Of a stretch of DNA of 64,000 nucleotides, positions 286 to 63,813 are shown in pieces; position 1 is the first letter of the stretch; every line of letters begins with the position of its first letter. The stretch covers positions 372,001-436,000 of the forward strand of contig JAMPEH010000001.1 in the NCBI GenBank assembly GCA_023665245.1, read 5' to 3'. Source of the DNA: Muribaculaceae bacterium. Lineage in GTDB: Bacteria > Pseudomonadota > Alphaproteobacteria > Rs-D84. Under the pieces are notes generated by a model. It saw nothing but the letters and a program-made list of their open reading frames with translations, ran no database searches and had not been told where the DNA came from. The position numbers and the translations under genes are program-made.

Positions 286-291
286 AGGCAT

Positions 292-547
292 TGAATCCGA
301 TGGAAATTGGGTTCGGTGGCTGTGATAAGCCAGTATCAAGTCGGTGCAAGAGCACCGTAAAAACTTTATTGTGTCTCGGTTGCTTTTGCTCCGTGATATT
401 ATCCCCGTATAACGGTCGGGGTGTTGTTGGTTATAAAATACAGGAAACTGAAAGGCCAACAAAATCATGACTTGATCTGATTTATCACCACCCCGGCCGT
501 CAATTTCATTGACGGCTTTATCATAATATTAACAACAAGGATTGATT
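292..547 (+). promoter_or_regulatory. Structured leader RNA, class B (copy B1), attenuator-like
   Basis: A non-coding leader of about 256 nt. It starts TTGAATCC, then shares the segment ending TTGGGTTCGG with the class B leaders upstream of 63540 and 22950. A GGTGC/GCACC hairpin follows. CCCCG (403-407) can pair with CGGGG (417-421). Alternatively 413-423 can pair over 11 positions with 489-499. A terminator-like hairpin is GCCGTCAA (496-503) / TTGACGGC (509-516) followed by TTTA. The second and third structures overlap by four bases, so they exclude each other, as in a transcription attenuator. It precedes a small membrane protein gene. The ligand is unknown. Confidence 0.7.

Positions 548-6723: not shown

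Positions 6724-6727
<4 letters not shown>
3779..6727 (-). CDS. Large exported protein of unknown function, 982 aa
   Basis: The start is ATG 6727, giving a clear signal peptide (MKKILIAFALLVVCGNSHA, then DFTV). The upstream gene ends TGA 6724-6726, so the two share ATGA and are translationally coupled. GGGAG lies about 8 nt before the ATG. The N-terminal half has many paired cysteines (for example CNLRLTCH-like and CRIARYA contexts), consistent with disulfides outside the cytoplasm. Around residues 445-500 is a long Gly/Ala-rich hydrophobic stretch (ITIGSAVLAGVVTYASGGSA) that could insert in a membrane. The C-terminal 350 residues are soluble and cysteine-poor. I recognise no family. A secreted effector or surface protein is possible but unproven. 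Confidence 0.85.
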
Positions 6728-7686
<959 letters not shown>

Positions 7687-14407: not shown

Positions 14408-15094
14408 TTAACTCTTGTATGGGCAGGTGCTGGTAATTTTAAATGTACCAGTAGTGTCATAATATGTCCCAGCCGAAATATAGCATCCTGTAATAGATGT
14501 TGCGCCGGCACTGCTGTTACCGCGTGCCAATATTGTCTTGGTTGAATTTGTGTACACACCAGTCCAGTTTGGGCATCGGGTACATCCTGATGTGCCATTT
14601 GTACTGCTGCCGTAATATCCTGCGGCACAACGGTATTTGGTTGATGCAACACAATCTGTGTTATAGACGGTTTGCTTTTGATATCCGGTGCCGGACGCCG
14701 CCCAATCGGTATCGTCTGGACAATTTTTAACGCATGTATGATATGGATACGGTTCTTTGTTTATATCTTCATCTGGCTCATACCAGCAGAGATAATCAAG
14801 TGCAATGCCAGTTGTATCTTCGTCAATGTATTCCAAGCTATATCCCGATGGACACGTTGCGCATGATTGAACGTAATAACATTTACCATCTGTTTCGTGC
14901 CACATAAAACTCTCGGTTTGATTCATTGTAGCGCAATTGTTGGCGCCAATAAGGGCTGATGTTTTGTCGGTACAGTTGCTATACTCGCTCTTCAGAGCAC
15001 TATAATCGCCCCAGTCGTCGCAATATGCAAATGCATTGCCGTGCACACTAATAATTGCCAGCACAGTGGGTGTGATAATAAATTTTGTTTTCAT
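14408..15094 (-). CDS. Secreted cysteine-rich protein with the shared C-terminal module
   Basis: 228 aa. The signal peptide is MKTKFIITPTVLAIISVHGNAFA, then YCDDWG. The mature protein has about 20 cysteines, many in CxxC or CP pairs, and ends in a module also found at four other loci here: RCAAGYYGSS.NGTSGC..CP.W..VYT, then TSITGCYISAGTYYDTTGTFK.T..CPYKS. No membrane anchor is visible. It should be exported to the periplasm or surface and stabilised by disulfides. It is a single gene under class A leader A1. I know no function; a surface or adhesion role is inference. Confidence 0.85.
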   Translation of the reverse strand: MKTKFIITPTVLAIISVHGNAFAYCDDWGDYSALKSEYSNCTDKTSALIGANNCATMNQTESFMWHETDGKCYYVQSCATCPSGYSLEYIDEDTTGIALDYLCWYEPDEDINKEPYPYHTCVKNCPDDTDWAASGTGYQKQTVYNTDCVASTKYRCAAGYYGSSTNGTSGCTRCPNWTGVYTNSTKTILARGNSSAGATSITGCYISAGTYYDTTGTFKITSTCPYKS

Positions 15095-15335
15095 TGTTGA
15101 AACTCCTGCGTTTGGTTAAACAAAAAACCACCGTTTTTATTGGTGGTTCAGGAGGTTCAGAACAATCCACAGAATTGCGTCGCGTATTGGTTATTCCGCG
15201 AACCCTCCTGAACCGAACGTTCAGGAGTTATCTTCGTTGCATATATTAAAAATGACGCATTTAATGCGCCACAGGTATATGTTCCAACGCCGTGGCAGAG
15301 GTTCTGACGCCTCATCAACGGAATACCCGTTGACA
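15095..15335 (-). promoter_or_regulatory. Structured leader RNA, class A (copy A1), attenuator-like
   Basis: It starts with the hairpin TCAACGG-GTATT-CCGTTGA and then ATGAGGCGT...ACCTCTG. C-rich strand 1 lies at 15220-15227, the G-rich strand at 15201-15214 and C-rich strand 2 at 15145-15157 (+ coordinates). The terminator hairpin is at 15127-15147 with a T run on the - strand. The G-rich strand can pair with either C-rich strand, and strand 2 overlaps the terminator stem. The ribosome site CAGGAG is complementary to the CTCCTG of both C-rich strands. Confidence 0.75.
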
Positions 15336-22653: not shown

Positions 22654-22950
22654 TTAATCTAGTAATGGCGCACAAGTGCAACTCTTGCTGTATACTTGTT
22701 TTTGAATATAGCCACTGCCGGCAGTGGTCGAAAAAGTTTGACTGGTATCCGTGGTATATGTACCACTGCATGTTGTGCCGGATGAACCACCCGACGTTGT
22801 GCAACATGTGCGACACGTTCCGTCACTGCACATTTTGCAACCAACCGACGAACATGTTTGTCCGCTGCTTAGTGGGCATGGCGCACAATCGGCATACGCG
22901 TCACCAATAGCAATGCATACGCAACATACGATAAATATTATTTTCTGCAT
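22654..22950 (-). CDS. Small secreted cysteine-rich protein
   Basis: 98 aa with a signal peptide ending AYA before DCAPCPLSSG. About 14 cysteines sit in dense CxxC/CC clusters (CKMCSDGTCRTCC). It lacks the shared C-terminal module, but the neighbour 4 nt downstream has it, so the pair may work together. GAGGGGA precedes the ATG and is complementary to the TCCCC strand of its leader. The function cannot be told; metal binding is an alternative to disulfide bonding. Confidence 0.78.
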   Translation of the reverse strand: MQKIIFIVCCVCIAIGDAYADCAPCPLSSGQTCSSVGCKMCSDGTCRTCCTTSGGSSGTTCSGTYTTDTSQTFSTTAGSGYIQKQVYSKSCTCAPLLD

Positions 22951-23227
22951 TTTTCCCCTCGTTATATTTTATAAAAACCGTCAATAGAATTTGACGGTCG
23001 GGGAGTTAAGAAAATCATATATAAGAATGACCCCGGCGGCCTTTGGGTGCGAAACGCACCCTGTGGTATAGCCGACGGCTCCCCGACCAACTGTGTCGAC
23101 CGGGGCAATGAGTACAATATAAAAGGCGCAAACGCGCCGCATTGTACCTGCGGATTACAATGTGTTTTTCACATCGCTTATATATGGGTTTTCTTACGAC
23201 CCCGAACCCACTATCCCTTTGAGTTCA
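22951..23227 (-). promoter_or_regulatory. Structured leader RNA, class B (copy B2), attenuator-like
   Basis: It starts TTGAACTC, then AAAGGGAT and GTGGGTTCGGG. A hairpin GATGTG-AAAAA-CACATT follows. C-rich strand 1 is at 23101-23105, the G-rich strand at 23079-23088 and C-rich strand 2 at 22996-23005. The terminator is CCGTCAA/TTGACGG (22978-22997) followed on the - strand by TTTTTAT. The same alternative pairing as in the other copies is possible. Confidence 0.75.
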
Positions 23228-23233
23228 ATATGA

Positions 23234-34808: not shown

Positions 34809-34837
34809 TTGCAATTATGACTTATATTAGATATAAT
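34809..34837 (+). promoter_or_regulatory. Promoter of leader A2
   Basis: TTGCAA (34809-34814), 17-nt spacer, TATAAT (34832-34837), then 8 nt to the 5' hairpin. Confidence 0.75.
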
Positions 34838-34843
34838 CCCTAT

Positions 34844-35087
34844 GTCGCCGGGCGTTCCGGTGATGAGGCGTGGAAACCTCTGCAATCGCGTCAGAATATA
34901 ATCTTGTGGCGCATAAATGCGCTATTTTTTATTCTGATGACAAATTATCTCCTGACCCATGGTCAGGAGGGTTGTGAATAATGCGCGTTTTGCGCAAAAT
35001 AAGCACGCAATTCGATTGATTGTTTCCAACCTCCTGACCACTCAAAGACTTGGGTGGTTTTTCATTTTGAAAAACAGGAGTTAAGAA
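34844..35087 (+). promoter_or_regulatory. Structured leader RNA, class A (copy A2), attenuator-like
   Basis: The 5' hairpin is CGCCGG-GCGTT-CCGGTG (34846-34862), then ATGAGGCGT with GAGG/CCTC pairing, then TGTGGCGCATAAATGCG. CTCCTGACC (34949-34957) can pair with GGTCAGGAG (34961-34969). The same G-rich strand, extended to 34973, can pair with AACCTCCTGACC (35028-35039). The terminator hairpin is ACCACTCAA (35037-35045) / TTGGGTGGT (35050-35058), followed by five T. The ribosome site AACAGGAG follows. This is the clearest copy of the switch. Confidence 0.8.
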
Positions 35088-35732
35088 ATGAGAACATTTA
35101 TATTAAGCACAGTGATTATTATACCTGTATTAGCACCATATAACCTGTATGCGTCCGATGTACGTGTCGATTGCGATGGTGGATACACCTATAACACGTG
35201 TGCCGAATCTAACCCAAGTGGCGCATACACATCAGGATGCCCAACGTTTGGTGTCACAAATACTGTTGACCGTCAAAAGTGTGCCACACTTAATGTAAAA
35301 TGGTGGCGTGGTTTGGGCTTTTATTCTTGCGACACATGTGTCAGCGGTGCAACAATAAAAGTAAAGGATGAAACTATTTCCAGTTGTGGCGTTCATTACA
35401 CTTATTGCGAATGCACAACAACATGCAGTACGACATCCTGGGTCAGCCTGCGCACCGGATACGAATCCCGCAAATATTGCAATGTATGCAGCCAAAGCAC
35501 CCAGTATCAATGCGCGGCTGGATATTACGGCAGTTCATCAAACGGGACATCAGGCTGCACCCAATGTCCAACATGGACGGATGTTTATACAACATCTGCA
35601 AAGACAACACAGGTGCGTGGGACGAGTGCCGCCGGCGCCACCGCAATCACTGGATGCTATGTCGCGGCGGGCACATATTACGATACAACCGGTACATTAA
35701 AAACGACCGGTAATTGTGCGTACAAGAGTTAG
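35088..35732 (+). CDS. Secreted cysteine-rich protein with the shared C-terminal module
   Basis: 214 aa. A hydrophobic N-terminus ends near LYASDV, so cleavage follows about residue 21. About 24 cysteines are present, including CECTTTCSTTSW and CNVCSQSTQ. The last 70 residues repeat the module of the 14408-15094 protein almost residue for residue (QCAAGYYGSSSNGTSGCTQCP, AITGCYVAAGTYYDTTGT, CAYKS). The ribosome site CAGGAG lies before ATG 35088. It is a single gene behind leader A2. Exported, disulfide-rich, role unknown. Confidence 0.85.
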   Translation: MRTFILSTVIIIPVLAPYNLYASDVRVDCDGGYTYNTCAESNPSGAYTSGCPTFGVTNTVDRQKCATLNVKWWRGLGFYSCDTCVSGATIKVKDETISSCGVHYTYCECTTTCSTTSWVSLRTGYESRKYCNVCSQSTQYQCAAGYYGSSSNGTSGCTQCPTWTDVYTTSAKTTQVRGTSAAGATAITGCYVAAGTYYDTTGTLKTTGNCAYKS

Positions 35733-41283: not shown

Positions 41284-41343
41284 GCACATTTGGTTTAAAG
41301 TCCAGGGCCGGATACTCTCTGTACTTTATTCATTAAAAAAATC

Positions 41344-41367
41344 CCCACCGTTTGGTGGGGATTTTTC
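41344..41367. terminator. Terminator of the giant surface-protein gene
   Basis: ATCCCCACC-GTTT-GGTGGGGAT with AT-rich runs on both sides, immediately after the stop codon. Confidence 0.88.
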
Positions 41368-44300
41368 TTACTTGCTATCGTCATGGACGCGATAGGTCAC
41401 GTTGCCATCTTTGATTATCAGGTATCCATCCAACGCGCCACTGGTCATATTACCATAGTACGTTGTATCGCCAACCTTTACATTCAACGACGGTGTTGTC
41501 TTTTTCACACTGCGCAGATATACCTTGTCCGCACCCACGTTCAAAATACGTCCACAGTCTGCGGCTTCGTCTGCGCCCGCGCCATACCCAATGGTGGTCA
41601 GGCCACTTGCACACGCCGTACGGGTCAACACATTCGCCGCCGACCAGTATCCCGCACCAACCTGAACACATGCATTATTCCACAGGTTTTCCAACGTACT
41701 GGCACTTGGTTGTGTGGCACCACCGTTTGCCGCCGCATTATAATATCCGGCATTGCATTTCAGTTCAGACGTATTGACCCAACATATCTTGCCACTGGCG
41801 GCGATACCATAACTGTTGGCATCCTTGTCAATATAGCAGTGATATGCTGTCATACTGCCATTTGGAACCGACTTTGCATTAAAGGTCGCATTACATCCCT
41901 CACGCACAGTGTGATCGCCATCTTTACCGGTATTCCAATAACCATATGATTTCACATCGGTTGCATTGGTTGCCGTCGGGCACGCGGTACAAGATGCTTG
42001 CCCTGTTGATGCCGCATACGTCGCACCTGTACATGCCGCACGATTACCAACATTTGGCCAATATACTGCTGTTGCCGGACATTGATATCCTGCCTCGCAT
42101 GTGGTTAATGCGGTTGCTGTATTTGCTGTCAGATACTTACCACTTATTGTATTTGCCGCGATATAGCAATCTGTGTTTGCATCAGACCCGGCTGCACTGT
42201 TTGTATACAATCCACCACCCAGGGCAGAGCACGCCGTCCCCGTATTCGCCGCCGTACCGCCATCTGTGTTGTAATAGATATTTGCAGTACTGTTGCAATA
42301 TCTGCCTGCGGTACAACTTGTCACACCGGCGCCTGCACTTGCCACCTGTTGACCTGCCTTCAAGGTCAGATAGCATTGCCCAACCTTTGATGCACCCGCC
42401 GCACTTTGTGTATACTTGCTGGATGTGCCACTGGCGCATGTCGCACTGCCACCTGTCGTGGTACCTGTTCCATAATAGATGGTGACACCACCCACACAAT
42501 AGTTCCCCGCAACACAGGTTTCCTGACCCTTTGTGGCAGTCTTTACATACTTACCCGCATCCGTCGTCAGATAACAACTGTCTGAACTGGTTGTGCCGAT
42601 TGCACTCTGGGTATAGTTGTTGCTTGTCGCACTGCTACATGTCGGACATGTATTGCCACTCTTATATCTGCCGGCGGCACACTTATCAACTGTACACAGG
42701 GCAGAACTTGACCATGTCGACAACCCATCAATTGCCGTGCACGATGCGCTACATGCCGTATTACCTGTTCCAGTATTGGTTGTACCGTTTACACAAGTTG
42801 AGCAAGATGTTTGCCCCTTTGCGTTGTTATATTTACCCGTTTCACACTTGGTACAACTTGTTTGTGTACCTGCCGCACTGGTATAAGACCCGGCTGCGCA
42901 CTGTTCGCATGTCTGACCACTTACAAATGAACCAGCCTTTGCTTGGAACGCTACACTTATCGCTGCGTCTGTCGGCCATGCAGGTGAGGTTGTCGCCACC
43001 TTTTGCAGTTGTCCTGCCGAACAATACGAACTTACATTTGTCGCATTACGCACTTCTACACAACTTGTATTTGATGACCACCCAGTACCAGCACTGTCTT
43101 TCTTACTCCAGTTCGTCTCAACCGCAGGGCAGGCTGTACAACTGCTGGTTCCTGCATTCGACGCATAGTAGACATTATGTGCCGCCTTGTATGTCCAGTT
43201 CGGGCATGTGCTGACCGCCGTGTCGGTAAGTTTTGCAATATACTTTCCCGCCGCCACACTGGCATAGCACTGTGTTGCCGCTGACGAACCAGTCCCAGTC
43301 GTCAAGTTATACAATCCACCCGTCCCACTTATTGCACTGCACGCTACAGGTGCCGCAGTATCTCCTGTGCAATAACTGTTCTTGGCACATGTTGAACATG
43401 TTCTGCTGTCGCCACTGCCTGTCACATAGGAACCTGGATTTGCATTTACCGTGACCGATTCCGTTGCGGTATTCCATGTAGTTGTGTCTTTCGCTGTCTT
43501 TTGCAATGTTCCACTCTTACACAGACTGCTAATATCGGTAGCTGCTCTAGTTTCCACACACGCTGTCACAGCTTGTTTCGCAGTAGACCCCGCATACGCA
43601 TACCCACTAGTCAATGTCGGGCAACTCTTACAACTACTCTGACCCGTCGCATCCTGATACTGACCTATAGCACACGCACTCTGACTCGTCGCACCAGTCC
43701 CACTTACATAGTATCCCTTGCCAGCCGATGTACAACTAGTCTGGGTATTTACTGCACTCGTATATGACCCCGCCGCACACTGACTACAGGTCTGACCATT
43801 CACATACGAACCTGCCTTTGCTTGCAGTGCTGTCGTCACACTCGTCGTGCCCCACGCACTCGCACTGCTTTGCGTCTTCGTCAGTACACCAGCACTACAA
43901 TTACTGCTTATTGCTGTACCTGTCTTCGTCTCTTTACAGGTCGTATAACTACTCTGACCAGTGCCACCACCCGCTGCCGTCCAGCCTTCTTCCGCAGCTA
44001 AACACGCTGTACAACTCGTCGCCGTTCCTCCAGCACTCCACGTACGACCACTACATTGTGTACAGCTCTGACCACTCACTATAGAACCAGCCTTTGCCTG
44101 GAACGCTACACTTATTGACGCCGCCGTCGGCCATTTGTTATCACTCGTCGCGTTCTTCTTTAACTGACCAGCACTACAATTACTACTTACACTCGTCGCT
44201 GCCTTTGTCTCATAGCAACTCGTTGCAGCAGTCCAACCAGTACCCGTCCCAGCTGTCCATGTACTCTCCGCTGCTACACACGCCGTACAACTTGTCGCAC

Positions 44301-47300
44301 TGCTGCCATTCGTCGTCTGGAACGTTGCACCAGTACACTGTGCACACGTCGTATTGTCTCCACTGCCACTCAAGTGCGACCCAGCCTTCGCTGTCAATGT
44401 ACTCGTCGCTGCATTCCATGTGCTCGCGTCTTTCGCTGTCTTTGTTAACAGACCACCATAGCAGTATCCACTTACATCTGCTGCTGCCTTGGTTTCTGTA
44501 CACGCTGTCACAGCTTGTTTCGCAGTAGACCCCGCATACGCATACCCACTAGTCAATGTCGGGCAACTCTTACAACTACTCTGACCCGTCGCATCCTGAT
44601 ACTGACCTATAGCACACGCACTCTGACTCGTCGCACCAGTCCCACTTACATAGTATCCCTTGCCAGCCGATGTACAACTAGTCTGGGTATTTACTGCACT
44701 CGTATATGACCCCGCCGCACACTGACTACAGGTCTGACCATTCACATACGAACCTGCCTTTGCTTGCAGTGCTGTCGTCACACTCGTCGTGCCCCACGCA
44801 CTCGCACTGCTTTGCGTCTTCGTCAGTACACCAGCACTACAATTACTGCTTATTGCTGTACCTGTCTTCGTCTCTTTACAGGTCGTATAACTACTCTGAC
44901 CAGTGCCACCACCCGCTGCCGTCCAGCCTTCTTCCGCAGCTAAACACGCTGTACAACTCGTCGCCGTTCCTCCAGCACTCCACGTACGACCACTACATTG
45001 TGTACAGGTTGCACTGGCTGTATTGTTGTTCGCTATTATGTAGCCACCACTCGCCGATACCGCATACGTACTTGCAGGCCACGCTGTACCGCTATATGAC
45101 ATCGTATTACTTGTCACACTCGCACACCCAGTTATAGTCTTAGACGGTGCTGTATACCGACACGTAGTGTTCGCATTACGTGGAGATACAGACGTATAAC
45201 TTCCTCCACTCGGGCTTGCACCACTTAATGAACTGCACTGATTCTGTACACCACTGGCACACCATGTTCCACTGCCACACTGACTCTGGCCAGTACAGTT
45301 ATTATTACTGCTGTTGCACCCAGTCGTATAATACCCACTGCTTACTGTGCTACAGCTACTCGCACCAGCACCACTGTACTGCGTACGACCACTACATGCA
45401 CTACACGATGATGTACTGCCATAGTTCACATTATGCTGCGCCTTATACGTTCCGGCCGTACATGTTCCCCAGTTAGAACTGGTCTGACCAGCAGTGCCTA
45501 TATAATGTCCACCAGTCACTGTTATATAACATGAACTGCGTAATGCATGGCTCGCAGCCGCCGTACCACTGTTTGAATAACCTGTATCACACGCTGTACA
45601 ACTACTTGCGCCCACAGCAGACCATGTGTTAGTTCCACATACCGCCGCTGTATAGCCACTCAATGCAGACGTACATGCACTGGATGTTGCACCACCAGTA
45701 GAGTACGTTCCCGCAGGACACGAACCGGTATATGAATATGTTGCAGTTCCACCAGTCGTATTATAATAAATTTTTGATGTGCTGGTACAATAGCGTCCGG
45801 CAGGACATGCTGATTTACCAGCGCCAGCACTTGCAACGCGATAACCTGCAGACAACGTCAAATAACATTGTCCTATACTACTGGCACCCGCTGTTGAACT
45901 TGTATATTTTCCACCAGTTTCTTCAGAACAAGAGAAAATGGTATCATTATCCGTCTCTTCCATCAATCCAGTACCATCAGAATCAATCACCATCCCTCCC
46001 GGGCAATAACTGCCTGCAGGACAGGTCAACTGAGCACCACCTTCTTCGGCAATGTATTTACCCGCAGAAACCGTCACACAACACCACGCATCGCTGCTTT
46101 TATTACCACGACTATCTGGGTAATTACCATTGTAATAATCACTACAACTTTCTGCGGTACAAGAGCCACTCTCCACAAATTTCCCATTAGGTATTACTGA
46201 TTGCCCTGTGGCCGTTGTGGATGTTGTATAATATCCTGTATCAACATTTTTACACGAATTAGCGGCCGTACCAGTTGCCGCTGGATGGTATTTGCCACAT
46301 CCACACGCAGACCAAACCGCATAAACCGTCACTGTTCCGCCATTAGTTGTGGTTAACCCAGTGGTACTGGTCATGCCTGATGTTGCCGAAGAACTGGTTG
46401 ACCAACCGACTATCTTATACCCACCACGATAATATGTTGTTGCACTCAATGATGCTAATGTACATGCACTGCCATAAGTACAAGTTGTATCGCCTGGAAC
46501 CGTTCCGCCACCATTATTCAAATTATATTTCACTGTATATGTGTTCGCAGTACAAGAGGATGCCCCAGCAGAACTGTGATACCCCGCAGCACAAGAATTG
46601 CGACCAAACGTTGTGGTATGCACTGTGGATTGATTACTGGAATTACACGCAACCTCACTTTTACCCGGGCAGTAATAGCCAGCTTCGCATTGTTTTACTT
46701 CGGAATAGTATGCATATGCACCACATCCTGTTTTTGTTGTCAAATACCAGCCAGGCGCCGCAGACATATAATTCCAGCTTTCTGTATTTTCATATTTTTT
46801 CGTTGATGAATTATATTTCACATACTCATACAACCCTGCGCGATCACCAGCATTATACCATGCCAAAGAAGTACATTCAGTTTCTGCTTTTAGCCCAGTT
46901 CGAGATTCTATACCCGCACTGCGAAATTTAGCATTATAGAAAGGCGCCGCACTCAACCCATTGGCACGTTTATTTGTGGTTGCATCTGGACATGCATTTA
47001 AACCATAATTGGTTGGCGGATTTTGAACATTTGAGAAACCAGGACAATAATTCCCACCAGTACATATTTCACACGAACTGCCATTCCAATATGTCCTAGC
47101 CGCACACGATTCTCCGCACACAGGTGCCGCCGTATCACCGGCGCATGTACACCCAGACGGACACGCTGTACACGCATTGCCTACTTTAGATGTGCCATTA
47201 TACGAACCATTATAGGTCATATAATACCCCAACGAACACGACGTATACTGTTTAATACTATCGCAAGTATAGCCTGCGGCAAACGCATTAGACGTAAAAA

Positions 47301-47343
47301 CAACAGCACTAAATAATGCCAAAACACGTAGAATTCTGTACAT
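41368..47343 (-). CDS. Giant cysteine-rich surface protein, 1991 aa
   Basis: The start is ATG 47343 with signal peptide MYRILRVLALFSAVVFTSNAFA, then AGYTC. GGGAAAA and GAAG lie upstream. The chain is dozens of short Cys-rich units of the form C..C..G.Y......A....SC, like growth-factor-receptor and GCC2/GCC3 repeats. Around residues 268-342 is one Listeria-Bacteroides (InlB-type) beta repeat (YTVKYNLNNGGG...GYKIVGWST...VTVYAVWS). Residues about 779-948 and 1093-1262 are identical at DNA level. The tail (VYLRSVKKTTPSLNVKVGDTTYYGNM...GYLIIKDGNVTYRVH) lacks cysteine and could be a sorting or anchoring domain. It has no class A or B leader. Adhesion or surface coat is inferred. Confidence 0.9.
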   Translation of the reverse strand: MYRILRVLALFSAVVFTSNAFAAGYTCDSIKQYTSCSLGYYMTYNGSYNGTSKVGNACTACPSGCTCAGDTAAPVCGESCAARTYWNGSSCEICTGGNYCPGFSNVQNPPTNYGLNACPDATTNKRANGLSAAPFYNAKFRSAGIESRTGLKAETECTSLAWYNAGDRAGLYEYVKYNSSTKKYENTESWNYMSAAPGWYLTTKTGCGAYAYYSEVKQCEAGYYCPGKSEVACNSSNQSTVHTTTFGRNSCAAGYHSSAGASSCTANTYTVKYNLNNGGGTVPGDTTCTYGSACTLASLSATTYYRGGYKIVGWSTSSSATSGMTSTTGLTTTNGGTVTVYAVWSACGCGKYHPAATGTAANSCKNVDTGYYTTSTTATGQSVIPNGKFVESGSCTAESCSDYYNGNYPDSRGNKSSDAWCCVTVSAGKYIAEEGGAQLTCPAGSYCPGGMVIDSDGTGLMEETDNDTIFSCSEETGGKYTSSTAGASSIGQCYLTLSAGYRVASAGAGKSACPAGRYCTSTSKIYYNTTGGTATYSYTGSCPAGTYSTGGATSSACTSALSGYTAAVCGTNTWSAVGASSCTACDTGYSNSGTAAASHALRSSCYITVTGGHYIGTAGQTSSNWGTCTAGTYKAQHNVNYGSTSSCSACSGRTQYSGAGASSCSTVSSGYYTTGCNSSNNNCTGQSQCGSGTWCASGVQNQCSSLSGASPSGGSYTSVSPRNANTTCRYTAPSKTITGCASVTSNTMSYSGTAWPASTYAVSASGGYIIANNNTASATCTQCSGRTWSAGGTATSCTACLAAEEGWTAAGGGTGQSSYTTCKETKTGTAISSNCSAGVLTKTQSSASAWGTTSVTTALQAKAGSYVNGQTCSQCAAGSYTSAVNTQTSCTSAGKGYYVSGTGATSQSACAIGQYQDATGQSSCKSCPTLTSGYAYAGSTAKQAVTACTETKAAADVSGYCYGGLLTKTAKDASTWNAATSTLTAKAGSHLSGSGDNTTCAQCTGATFQTTNGSSATSCTACVAAESTWTAGTGTGWTAATSCYETKAATSVSSNCSAGQLKKNATSDNKWPTAASISVAFQAKAGSIVSGQSCTQCSGRTWSAGGTATSCTACLAAEEGWTAAGGGTGQSSYTTCKETKTGTAISSNCSAGVLTKTQSSASAWGTTSVTTALQAKAGSYVNGQTCSQCAAGSYTSAVNTQTSCTSAGKGYYVSGTGATSQSACAIGQYQDATGQSSCKSCPTLTSGYAYAGSTAKQAVTACVETRAATDISSLCKSGTLQKTAKDTTTWNTATESVTVNANPGSYVTGSGDSRTCSTCAKNSYCTGDTAAPVACSAISGTGGLYNLTTGTGSSAATQCYASVAAGKYIAKLTDTAVSTCPNWTYKAAHNVYYASNAGTSSCTACPAVETNWSKKDSAGTGWSSNTSCVEVRNATNVSSYCSAGQLQKVATTSPAWPTDAAISVAFQAKAGSFVSGQTCEQCAAGSYTSAAGTQTSCTKCETGKYNNAKGQTSCSTCVNGTTNTGTGNTACSASCTAIDGLSTWSSSALCTVDKCAAGRYKSGNTCPTCSSATSNNYTQSAIGTTSSDSCYLTTDAGKYVKTATKGQETCVAGNYCVGGVTIYYGTGTTTGGSATCASGTSSKYTQSAAGASKVGQCYLTLKAGQQVASAGAGVTSCTAGRYCNSTANIYYNTDGGTAANTGTACSALGGGLYTNSAAGSDANTDCYIAANTISGKYLTANTATALTTCEAGYQCPATAVYWPNVGNRAACTGATYAASTGQASCTACPTATNATDVKSYGYWNTGKDGDHTVREGCNATFNAKSVPNGSMTAYHCYIDKDANSYGIAASGKICWVNTSELKCNAGYYNAAANGGATQPSASTLENLWNNACVQVGAGYWSAANVLTRTACASGLTTIGYGAGADEAADCGRILNVGADKVYLRSVKKTTPSLNVKVGDTTYYGNMTSGALDGYLIIKDGNVTYRVHDDSK
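43558..44065 (-). repeat. 508-bp perfect direct repeat, copy 2 in gene order
   Basis: Identical by eye to 44500-45007. The offset is 942 bp (314 codons), so recombination between copies would keep the reading frame. Confidence 0.9.
44500..45007 (-). repeat. 508-bp perfect direct repeat, copy 1 in gene order
   Basis: Partner of 43558-44065. The absence of even silent differences implies a recent duplication or ongoing gene conversion. Confidence 0.9.
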
Positions 47344-47375
47344 TTTTCCCACTTCTTTTTCTCTATACACACCGC

Positions 47376-50175: not shown

Positions 50176-50206
50176 AACACCCGCCGCACGGCGGGATTTT
50201 TAATTT
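50176..50206. terminator. Bidirectional terminator after gpmI
   Basis: CCCGCCG-CAC-GGCGGG followed by ATTTTTAATTTTT. On the - strand it is followed by a T run. The convergent gene ends at 50200. Confidence 0.85.
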
Positions 50207-50871
50207 TTATAATAAGCATCTTCCGTACACTTATAACGACCAGTCGAATCAGAAAAATTATAAGAACTACTTTTTGCAATATAACAATCCGTTATTATTG
50301 CATTTTCACCCGGCATCGAATTTGCCATATAATGGCTATCGTTTTGTGGATACGGGCATGCGGTACAACCAGATGTGCCGTCGTCACTGGCGACGCCATA
50401 ATAACCAGACGAACATGTATATTCTGTTGAAATTTTGCAAGCTTTGTTTGCCAGCAATCTATCACACTCTCGGATAATCATGCTTGCTATGCCGTTTCCA
50501 TCATCGTCGAAATCGTCATCTGACACACAGCTGGAATCACACGGTTTGGCACATATTGTAAGTGTGATTTTTGTATTATCAATGTCGTTGCAAGAATCGG
50601 TCCAATCAATTTCTGCGTTGGACAGTGTTATCAAGCTGTATCCACGATTACATGCGGTGCATTGTGGTGTTGAAAATATTGCACTTGAACTTAAAATTAC
50701 GCTATAATAATTTGTATAAGTAACACTGGTGCAATATTGAATATAATCACGGGCCTGATATGGAATGTATCCAGTAGGTGTATCCGTTGTCGTTGTTGTA
50801 CACATGTCTGCATTTGCACAGTTAGAATAAATCGATAATGCAACCAGCGTGAAGATTATTTTATGTTTCAT
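50200..50871 (-). CDS. Secreted cysteine-rich protein, diverged module
   Basis: 223 aa from ATG 50871, with CAGGAG upstream. The signal peptide is MKHKIIFTLVALSIYSNCANA, then DMCTTTT. About 16 cysteines. It has one acidic loop (SDDDFDDDGNG) that resembles a calcium-binding DxDxDG motif. The end (TEYTCSSGYYGVASDDGTSGCTACPYPQ, then AIITDCYIAKSS, TGRYKCTEDAYYKN) is a diverged form of the shared module. Single gene behind leader A3. Role unknown. Confidence 0.82.
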   Translation of the reverse strand: MKHKIIFTLVALSIYSNCANADMCTTTTTDTPTGYIPYQARDYIQYCTSVTYTNYYSVILSSSAIFSTPQCTACNRGYSLITLSNAEIDWTDSCNDIDNTKITLTICAKPCDSSCVSDDDFDDDGNGIASMIIRECDRLLANKACKISTEYTCSSGYYGVASDDGTSGCTACPYPQNDSHYMANSMPGENAIITDCYIAKSSSYNFSDSTGRYKCTEDAYYKN

Positions 50872-51105
50872 TGTTCGTTCTCCTGTTTTTTCTAATGAAA
50901 AACCACCCAAATTTGAGTGGTCAGGAGGTTAACGACAATTGCATGAATTGTGGCGCGTATTGAATATTCCGCGCCCCTCCTGAACCCCAAAAGTACAGGA
51001 GAAAAACTCATTGAAATCTTAGCCAATCGCGCCCAAATAGGCACTAGGCTTCTATTCCAATGCATGCACAGGGTCGTTACACCCCATCACCAGAACACCT
51101 GGTGA
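50872..51105 (-). promoter_or_regulatory. Structured leader RNA, class A (copy A3), attenuator-like
   Basis: The 5' hairpin is CACCAG-GTGTT-CTGGTG, then GATGGGGTGT with GGGT/ACCC pairing. C-rich strand 1 is at 50994-51001, the G-rich strand at 50975-50986, C-rich strand 2 at 50919-50930. The terminator is ACCACTCAAA/TTTGGGTGGT (50902-50921) with a T run on the - strand. Shared with A1 is GAATA..CAATACGCG.C.CAATTC between the G-rich strand and strand 2. Confidence 0.75.
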
Positions 51106-51112
51106 CGTTTAT

Positions 51113-63138: not shown

Positions 63139-63540
63139 TTAATTGCTGTACGTGCAATTACTGGTCAATGTAAATGTACCCGTGGCATCATAGTACGTGC
63201 CAGCAGGAATATAACACCCAGTAATAACTAACCTTCCGTTACCAGATGTGGCGGCCGCCGTCAAAGTATGCGCCGCATCAGTATAGATACCCGTCCATTC
63301 GGGACACCGATTACATCCCGTAAGACCATCAGTGGTTGTACCATAATATCCAACTGGACAATCTTTCTCCAAAGACGCACCACCGCATATCATGCCATCT
63401 GGACATCTCTTGCCGGTTGCAACAACCGAACCATCACTGCACAGGCATGACAACGTACTTGTACCAGGCCCAAGCGACGCTGCATACGCTGGTGACAATG
63501 CCAATAACGCGGTTGGTATAATAATTAAACATGTTTTCAT
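63139..63540 (-). CDS. Secreted cysteine-rich protein with the shared C-terminal module
   Basis: 133 aa. The signal peptide is MKTCLIIIPTALLALSPAYA, then ASLGPG. The mature start CLCSDGSVVATGKRCPDGMICGG resembles a small Cys knot. The last 70 residues are the shared module (CPVGYYGTTTDGLTGCNRCPEWTGIYT, VITGCYIPAGTYYDATGTFTLTSNCTYSN). GGGAG precedes the ATG. Single gene behind leader B3. Role unknown. Confidence 0.84.
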   Translation of the reverse strand: MKTCLIIIPTALLALSPAYAASLGPGTSTLSCLCSDGSVVATGKRCPDGMICGGASLEKDCPVGYYGTTTDGLTGCNRCPEWTGIYTDAAHTLTAAATSGNGRLVITGCYIPAGTYYDATGTFTLTSNCTYSN

Positions 63541-63807
63541 TTTCGATACTCCCTATTGTTTTTTGGTTAAACAAAAACCACCAAAATCATTGGTGGTCGG
63601 GAAGTTCAAAAATCATAATTCAAAATGATCCCGTGGAATTTCGGATAAACCTTATAACCACAGCTTCCCGACCAAAATGGCCGGGATAAAACAATCACCC
63701 GTTCAGACAGCCGTCCGCGCCGGTGTGTGTTTTGGATATCAATGCGAAACACCGCATCGTTGAATTATGGGATTTTGAAGTCCCGAACCCAAATCCCTTT
63801 GGATTCA
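63541..63807 (-). promoter_or_regulatory. Structured leader RNA, class B (copy B3), attenuator-like
   Basis: It starts TTGAATCCAAAGGGATTTGG, where TTGAAT can pair with a later ATTCAA and GGGATTT with AAATCCC. The hairpin GATGCG-GTGTTT-CGCATT follows. C-rich strand 1 is at 63679-63685, the G-rich strand at 63664-63673, C-rich strand 2 at 63595-63604. The terminator is ACCACC/GGTGGT (63577-63597) with TTTTTG on the - strand. Confidence 0.78.
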
Positions 63808-63813
63808 ACATAA

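Follow-up and report, generated by a model that had tools for sequence, protein, structure and literature searches.

In transcription-terminating riboswitches and attenuators, among them c-di-GMP and T-box leaders, an antiterminator and a terminator located in the 5′ leader exclude each other, and c-di-GMP riboswitches control surface genes. A structured RNA also stands upstream of phage antirepressors in the IsrK, C4 and c4-a1b1 families (RF01394, RF01695 and RF03163), a likeness to the phage leaders described below. For IsrK, a terminated short RNA activates in trans the translation of a read-through mRNA with two alternative structures (PMC4825925). The sRNA-Xcc1 family (RF02221) was cloned from Xanthomonas as an 88-nt RNA with mapped ends, abundant in exponential phase (PMC2996969), and lies in Xanthomonas upstream of symE in an integron cassette found in 13 species (PMC12444791). 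Seven copies are treated as trans sRNAs in Xylella (PMC12189769), Aeromonas salmonicida J223 has 15 copies (PMC8780938), and the Rfam structure was improved by two covarying pairs in release 15 (PMC11701678). Published work reports RF02221 from plant-pathogen, Haemophilus, Aeromonas, and E. coli genomes, and discuss it in part as a virulence sRNA.

The DNA analyzed here is a 64,000-nt stretch, hereafter the window. Six leaders were located where a sequence-only reading had placed them, with the order of parts it had described: promoter, 5′ hairpin, strand 1, G strand, strand 2 overlapping the terminator, ribosome site, and gene. Two subtypes were distinguished. Type I comprises leader a (291-519, plus strand; matched by the covariance models R1 and R2) before a 53-aa ORF (548-709), leader c (22973-23228, minus strand) before the gene at 22654-22950, and leader f (63573-63808, minus strand) before the gene at 63139-63540. 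Type II comprises leader b (15123-15334, minus strand; R1 and R3) before the gene at 14408-15094, leader d (34844-35062 from P1 to the U-tract, plus strand; folding, R1 and R3), and leader e (50898-51106, minus strand) before the gene at 50200-50871. The claim that five of the six precede Cys-rich proteins was borne out, the exception being leader a, whose ORF contains 3 Cys; Pfam gave no match for the five Cys-rich window proteins or ORF a. Unconstrained folding produced the same ground plan in all six leaders, namely P1, a long-range ladder P0-P2a-P2b, the inner hairpins H1, H2, and H3, and a terminator overlapping strand 2. With this ladder and the additional helices P5 and P4, the common fold exceeds its first description.

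Leader d illustrates this anatomy on the plus strand. Its promoter (34809-34837) consists of TTGCAA, a 17-nt spacer, and TATAAT, and is followed by P1, an 8-bp 5′ hairpin in the minimum free energy (MFE) structure (34844-34864). MFE and covariation indicate that the GAGG at 34865-34868 pairs either with the CCTC of strand 2, forming P0 (OFF), or with the CCTC at 34877-34880, the 3′ strand of the local ON-state helix P5 suggested by covariation. The 5′ strand of P2a (34871-34877; MFE and covariation) has its partner at 35022-35028, and the locus-specific 5′ strand of P2b (34883-34888; MFE) at 35013-35018. Strand 1, CTCCTGACC (34949-34957), forms H2 with the G strand according to sequence, MFE, and covariation. 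The G strand, GGTCAGGAGG (34961-34970), pairs with strand 1 in H2 or with strand 2 in the antiterminator, as indicated by partner swaps and covariation. Downstream lie the H3 hairpin with its AATA-type internal loop (approximately 34971-35008; MFE and covariation) and P4, an ON-state hairpin in which CAAT and ATTG pair around the P2b 3′ strand (35008-35022; covariation). Strand 2, CCTCCTGACC (35030-35039; sequence and partner swaps), overlaps the 5′ arm of the intrinsic terminator, whose MFE hairpin and U-tract span 35036-35062. The three strands are exactly those that had been quoted for 34949-35039. A Shine-Dalgarno sequence, CAGGAG (35075-35080), precedes gene d (35088-35732), which encodes a secreted-type Cys-rich protein of 214 aa without Pfam match.

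Cross-finding by covariance models confirmed that the six leaders are one RNA family, beyond chance. The type II model R1, built from b, d, e, and one outside leader, found leader a at E 1e-6, part of f at 3e-5, and c only at 0.22. Reciprocally, the type I model R2, built from a, c, f, and five outside leaders, also found leader d at E 1e-7; b appeared only at 0.014 and e was absent at E ≤ 0.1. R3, built from alphaproteobacterial leaders only and without any window sequence, found d, e, b, and f at E 6e-28 to 1e-9 and c at 0.006, and missed leader a at E ≤ 1. At E < 0.01, the three models revealed no leader in the window beyond the six. By eye, the P1 loops are often GGGA/GGAA (GNRA-type) in type I and GNRTT pentaloops in type II, and docking with H3 is possible. 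Elsewhere in the window, no family leader stands before a 2000-aa Cys-rich repeat protein (41368-47370, minus strand, GTG start as listed), near which R3 gave weak partial matches just beyond the 3′ end only (41320-41361, E 0.025). At the beginning of the ORF at 6724-7680 (minus strand), a short tandem DNA repeat encodes repeated MYVC units, and the start may be variable.

To quantify the pairing, we used a census of 130 leaders and A8, a 42-row alignment without window sequences. The census leaves out G038:180581-180791 (whose gene encodes a Cys-rich secreted-type protein), L029 (a duplicate of L002), the partial L058:1-66, L004 (the same stretch as L001), weak or partial R1/R2 matches, and R2 loci duplicating earlier ones. 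The P0-P2a-P2b ladder was parsed in 126/130 unconstrained MFE structures, with P2b varying from locus to locus and matched on both sides. A P1-like hairpin was present in 124/130 leaders and a U-rich tail at the leader end in 128/130; the terminator claimed earlier is supported. A TANNNT box lay at most 16 nt before P1 in 125/129 leaders, compared with 38/129 for an upstream control window; P1 is therefore near the transcript start. Since P1 starts at most 7 nt after the end of the -10-like box, there is no room before it for the ribosome site of a leader-peptide attenuator.

Analysis of A8 revealed covariation of both folds. The OFF helices were paired in 90.5% of cells and scored 0.548, against 0.216±0.008 in shuffles (0/500 as high), which, like partner swaps, ignore the relatedness of paralogues. 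The slid control, which takes relatedness into account, reached at most 0.119 but favours the A8 structure, because this was drawn from the rows' own MFEs. Cells changed on both sides numbered 403 versus 133±9 in shuffles, and P2a was paired in 42/42 rows throughout its seven positions, at which as many as five pair types occurred. The ON helices were paired in 93.0% of cells and scored 0.378 against 0.177±0.011 shuffled (0/500) and at most 0.139 slid, with 80 versus 23±4 cells changed on both sides; one of five ON measures (pairs changed on both sides, 12 versus 8.6) was reached by 7/500 shuffles. The weakest helices were P2b (68-77% of cells paired) and P5 (81%).

Partner swaps gave a matching picture for the G strand, which pairs with its own strand 2 over 9.90 bp versus 7.34±0.12 for swapped partners (maximum 7.75) and 5.48 for shuffled letters (n=123). 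By group, the values were 9.67 versus 8.29 swapped in short leaders, 9.66 versus 8.38 in type I, and 10.23 versus 9.91±0.05 in the type II-long group, a small effect. Own-partner excess was also found for P5 (GAGG with CCTC; 3.29 bp versus 2.71±0.055, n=126) and for P4 of type II (4.67 versus 3.97±0.087, n=82). P4 of type I showed no swap signal (2.71 versus 2.74), perhaps owing to truncation of the segment used or to invariance of the helix. That the G strand pairs with either strand 1 or strand 2, each excluding the other, is thus supported by own-partner excess and by OFF and ON covariation scores above 500 shuffles, and the co-variation first noticed between the six loci holds on far more sequences, both folds scoring above 500/500 shuffles on the 42 rows. 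For the alphaproteobacterial leaders, a ribosome-site interaction of the P4/P2a region was also considered and proved weak or absent, at 5.21 versus 5.03±0.08 swapped (maximum 5.22, n=125).

Sequence, homology, covariation of both helix sets, the positions of promoter and terminator, and gene context are the basis on which we consider each leader likely to be a cis-acting bistable RNA deciding transcription termination before its gene. Strand 2 is common to P0, the terminator, and the antiterminator, the G strand to H2 and the antiterminator, and GAGG to P0 and P5, and the P2 strands overlap P4 and P5, so that the ON helices exclude the distinctive OFF helices. The predicted default, the OFF fold, would contain P1, P0, P2a, P2b, H1, H2 (strand 1 with the G strand), H3, and the terminator. 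In the ON fold, the G strand would take strand 2, removing P0 and the 5′ arm of the terminator, and P5 and P4 would form from the freed P0/P2 strands. Computed MFEs favour OFF by 13.8 kcal/mol at full length and by 8.2 at the moment strand 2 is completed (n=125, without pseudoknots); termination is probably the default, and this preference implies that ON would need a strong trigger or kinetic help. An input, whether metabolite, second messenger, protein, or trans RNA, would shift the folds toward ON, and the resulting readthrough would jointly activate surface and accessory genes. At the level of sequence and covariation, the leaders share one mark of a riboswitch, namely alternative folds linked to an expression platform.

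The genes behind the leaders were characterized in a census weighted to top-scoring model matches. By a simple hydrophobicity rule, 103/122 downstream proteins were secreted-like, compared with 29% of 830 background ORFs, and 90/122 contained at least 5% Cys, compared with 8.4% of the same background. Both properties were combined in 19/35 downstream proteins of G038 alone, one of them encoded by a dubious 45-aa ORF. Among 18 other alphaproteobacterial downstream proteins submitted to Pfam, 14 had a family above cut-off, three had weak HTH matches only, and one had none. The 14 include glycosyltransferases, LicD, Stealth, outer-membrane barrels, an autotransporter with Chlam_PMP repeats, PKD, HTH and LysR regulators, and an N-6 DNA methylase. 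Short leaders were also observed before small HTH (Cro/XRE-type) genes in G038 and G001 (L078:878, L088:7498, L110:13890, and L006:349); two of these ORFs are above Pfam cut-offs and two are weak.

The covariance-model search of related genomes that had been proposed showed that the leaders recur widely. R1 matched 135/142 genomes drawn from the family and 160/190 drawn from the order; copy numbers in these large draws are floors, because 8-16 candidates were scored per genome. At E ≤ 0.01, R1 gave 53 and 37 matches in two ~1-Mb genomes. R2 matched 12/13 chosen genomes with 2-42 copies each, counts that overlap with those of R1 because R2 also picks up type II. The genome G038 (contig C1 alone, 1,001,484 bp) has 36 full leaders, of which 35 entered the census. 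A search with protein d yielded three loci, in records titled Alphaproteobacteria bacterium and uncultured Rickettsiales bacterium, with the leader before the gene in 3/3. At the class level, R1 matched 14/289 genomes and R3 31/289, and at the phylum level R3 matched 7/299; the remaining genomes of both draws, with zero matches at E ≤ 1e-4, provide a control for specificity. In ten class-level genomes outside the order draw, eleven leaders (L143-L153) kept the architecture in their MFE structures. Their genes, where an ORF was found, encode outer-membrane barrels, lipoproteins, and a restriction-type protein, assigned by eye except for Mrr_cat.

Comparison with Rfam qualified the novelty of the system, which had been put forward as undescribed; as stated, this was not borne out. 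A match to a known family, which the sequence-only reading had named as evidence against it, was obtained at a distance, in relatives, and the window leaders themselves have no RF02221 match. At the six leader places, no Rfam family scored over its gathering score; at E ≤ 10, only chance-level matches to unrelated families touched leader c, and RF02221 was absent from the window, leader c included. An Rfam scan of class-level genomes revealed RF02221 in 3/10, one over the cut-off (56.2 bits, E 2.4e-7) and aligned to the ON fold. By direct search, 15/19 genomes matched at E ≤ 0.01, against 0/14 controls, with the best E values in G390 (1.2e-9) and G002 (9.2e-9). The curated cut-off of 53 bits was passed in one of the 19, G390 (56.2 bits), which lies outside the order draw; other relatives reach 51.8. 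In G038, each of the five RF02221 matches lay within a leader that R1 or R2 had located, in the same orientation. In G390, a second, opposite-strand RF02221-like match lies nearby (L144 4354-4438 and 3976-4059; also 310975-311058, minus strand), and these paired matches suggest divergent leaders around one locus.

The 87 positions of RF02221 correspond to the 3′ half of the leader, comprising the closing stem of G strand and strand 2, H3 with its AATACAA..AATA loop, and the P4 hairpin. Its consensus helices are those of the ON fold, which are supported by covariation in related leaders. Unlike the leaders, the Rfam entry is typed as an sRNA gene and models neither the 5′ half nor the terminator. 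A wholly new RNA is ruled out by the RF02221 homology of the relatives; by this homology, the alphaproteobacterial leaders would be sRNA-Xcc1 relatives that start with a hairpin, contain an anti-antiterminator, and end in a terminator.

Searching with the printed RF02221 consensus at E ≤ 0.01 retrieved 15 phage and 4 plasmid-collection records, and at E ≤ 0.1 it matched 191/5426 E. coli genomes, mostly part-length. In six of the records, the next gene begins 39-70 nt past the match and is annotated as Ant, KilA-N, ORF6N, or BRO (one each) or as hypothetical (two). One such element (H4, NZ_CP093017.1, 288566-288613) was seen before a BRO-family gene beside mercury-resistance genes on a Pseudomonas replicon. 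Scanning viral contigs for the motif gave at least 120 stretches. Set one started from 80 loci, with 69 remaining once sufficient flank was required, 47 after removal of duplicates, 43 with an ORF, and 39 after the length filter; the held-out set comprised the other 40 of 120 loci (36 with flank, 25 unique, 25 with an ORF, 23 parsed). Antirepressor types (P22_AR, KilA-N, AntA, Bro-N, and ORF6N) were identified by Pfam in 10/10 downstream proteins sent, out of 43.

Judged from their sequences, the parsed phage copies of RF02221 also have the 5′ half. In the 39 leaders of set one, P2a pairs over 6.77 bp versus 5.49±0.17 swapped and P2b over 6.51 versus 4.13±0.17; in the 23 held-out leaders, the values were 6.26 versus 5.02±0.18 and 6.52 versus 4.21±0.22. 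P4 of at least 3 bp was found in 38/39 set-one leaders (no control). The P4 loop pairs with the ribosome-site region of its own gene over 7.10 nt versus 4.26±0.18 swapped (held-out set: 6.22 versus 4.44±0.23), and the P2b 5′ region shares with that ribosome-site region an identical stretch of 6.97 nt versus 4.57±0.16. The phage loop is thus complementary to both the 5′ half and the ribosome site of the gene. T-runs of at least 6 occurred in the 185-nt 5′ region of 41/43 set-one leaders, at varying positions, versus 15.6% of random windows, and in 23/25 of the held-out set; a hairpin before the T-run was noticed by eye only, in examples. A competition involving strand 1 and the G strand was also tried for phages and rejected, at 3.98 versus 4.07±0.12 (n=41). 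R3 matched 9/23 phage, plasmid, and E. coli loci (17 of the 120 viral loci plus six phage, plasmid, and E. coli loci) at full length at E < 0.01, with a best E of 2.4e-10, which extends the homology to the 5′ half; R1 found 0/6 phage, plasmid, and E. coli loci and R2 1/6 (E 0.0036, partial).

The two forms differ in several respects. The alphaproteobacterial form has P1 in 124/130 leaders, a terminal terminator, and H2, with T-runs upstream of the G strand in 9/123 and little or no ribosome-site match. The phage form has a P1-like hairpin in 8/38 leaders, T-runs in the 5′ region, and the ribosome-site match. Given this pairing and the antirepressor genes, the phage form looks like a translation switch with an IsrK-like logic. 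We consider it evenly balanced whether sRNA-Xcc1 is mainly the 3′ half of a ~200-nt bistable leader core, and not a trans sRNA, with a phage switch domesticated by the alphaproteobacterial lineage. If so, a terminator within the phage 5′ region would yield a short 5′ RNA, which would act in trans as IsrK does, and the P4 loop of the read-through RNA would pair with the 5′ half or with the ribosome site of the antirepressor. Locus-specific P4 loops would set translation, and perhaps immunity specificity, and the alphaproteobacterial lineage would have put the terminator at the leader end and multiplied the switch into a genome-wide surface-gene regulon.

Other explanations were weighed against the same data. 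The size of the leaders, their conserved H3 internal loops, the two subtypes with the same expression platform, and the position of copies before envelope genes would suit a classical riboswitch whose P2/H3 junction binds one small molecule, the copies being its regulon. We regard this as possible but tentative, because none of the 14 Pfam-named downstream proteins (18 sent) points to one metabolite, and the phage homologues precede antirepressors and pair with the ribosome site, which RNA-RNA control fits as well. A protein antiterminator, HTH or RNA-binding, that binds the conserved loops and causes readthrough seems somewhat unlikely: the HTH genes that some leaders precede could be autoregulatory, but they are unlike in length and Pfam family.

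Processing or termination of the leaders to free trans-acting sRNAs, with the terminator as the end of an sRNA gene, would agree with the accounts of sRNA-Xcc1 as an abundant exponential-phase 88-nt RNA with mapped ends (PMC2996969) and of its trans treatment in Xylella (PMC12189769). We find this improbable for the leaders, since a start codon lies 17-40 nt past the leader in 122/129 and an SD-like triplet is present in 125/129, the terminator overlaps with strand 2, whose sequence covaries with that of the G strand, and the locus-specific P2b argues for pairing within one molecule. High copy number and many stem-loops could likewise be ascribed to repetitive palindromic DNA elements devoid of any regulatory role, but this is hardly credible for elements that, in most of the 129 cases, follow a promoter-like box, precede a start codon, and run in the direction of the gene, and whose alternative helices covary.

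The best reading remains a bistable leader core that would act on antirepressor translation in phages and that, in these Alphaproteobacteria, would have been coupled to a terminator and multiplied. As far as the openly licensed PMC literature was searched, no account was found of the leaders, nor of RF02221 as an antirepressor leader, and the words alphaproteobacter-, antirepressor, and prophage are absent from the main text of an ncRNA survey of 50 bacterial genomes (PMC11109978). The interpretation as a cis switch is new to the same extent, because earlier work treats RF02221 as an sRNA acting in trans. Should the best reading hold, dozens of genes, the majority of them surface genes, would be under the control of a single RNA switch in ~1-Mb genomes of uncultured Alphaproteobacteria. 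It would offer a testable handle on surface regulation in reduced genomes, suggest a function for RF02221, and connect phage antirepressor control with host gene regulation.

With respect to known systems, IsrK and C4 are RNA families distinct from the RF02221/leader family. Membership of the window leaders in these families was rejected, the window having no RF01394, RF01695, or RF03163 match at E ≤ 10. At E ≤ 0.01, 12/12 phage, plasmid, and E. coli loci matched RF02221 and none matched those three families; reciprocally, the Gifsy-1 isrK stretch matched RF01394, RF01695, and RF03163 and neither RF02221 (E ≤ 1) nor R3 (E ≤ 10). In their predicted operation, the leaders resemble terminating riboswitches and attenuators, none of which has an Rfam match in the window. 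They differ from these systems in that their core is common with phage leaders that apparently act at the ribosome site.
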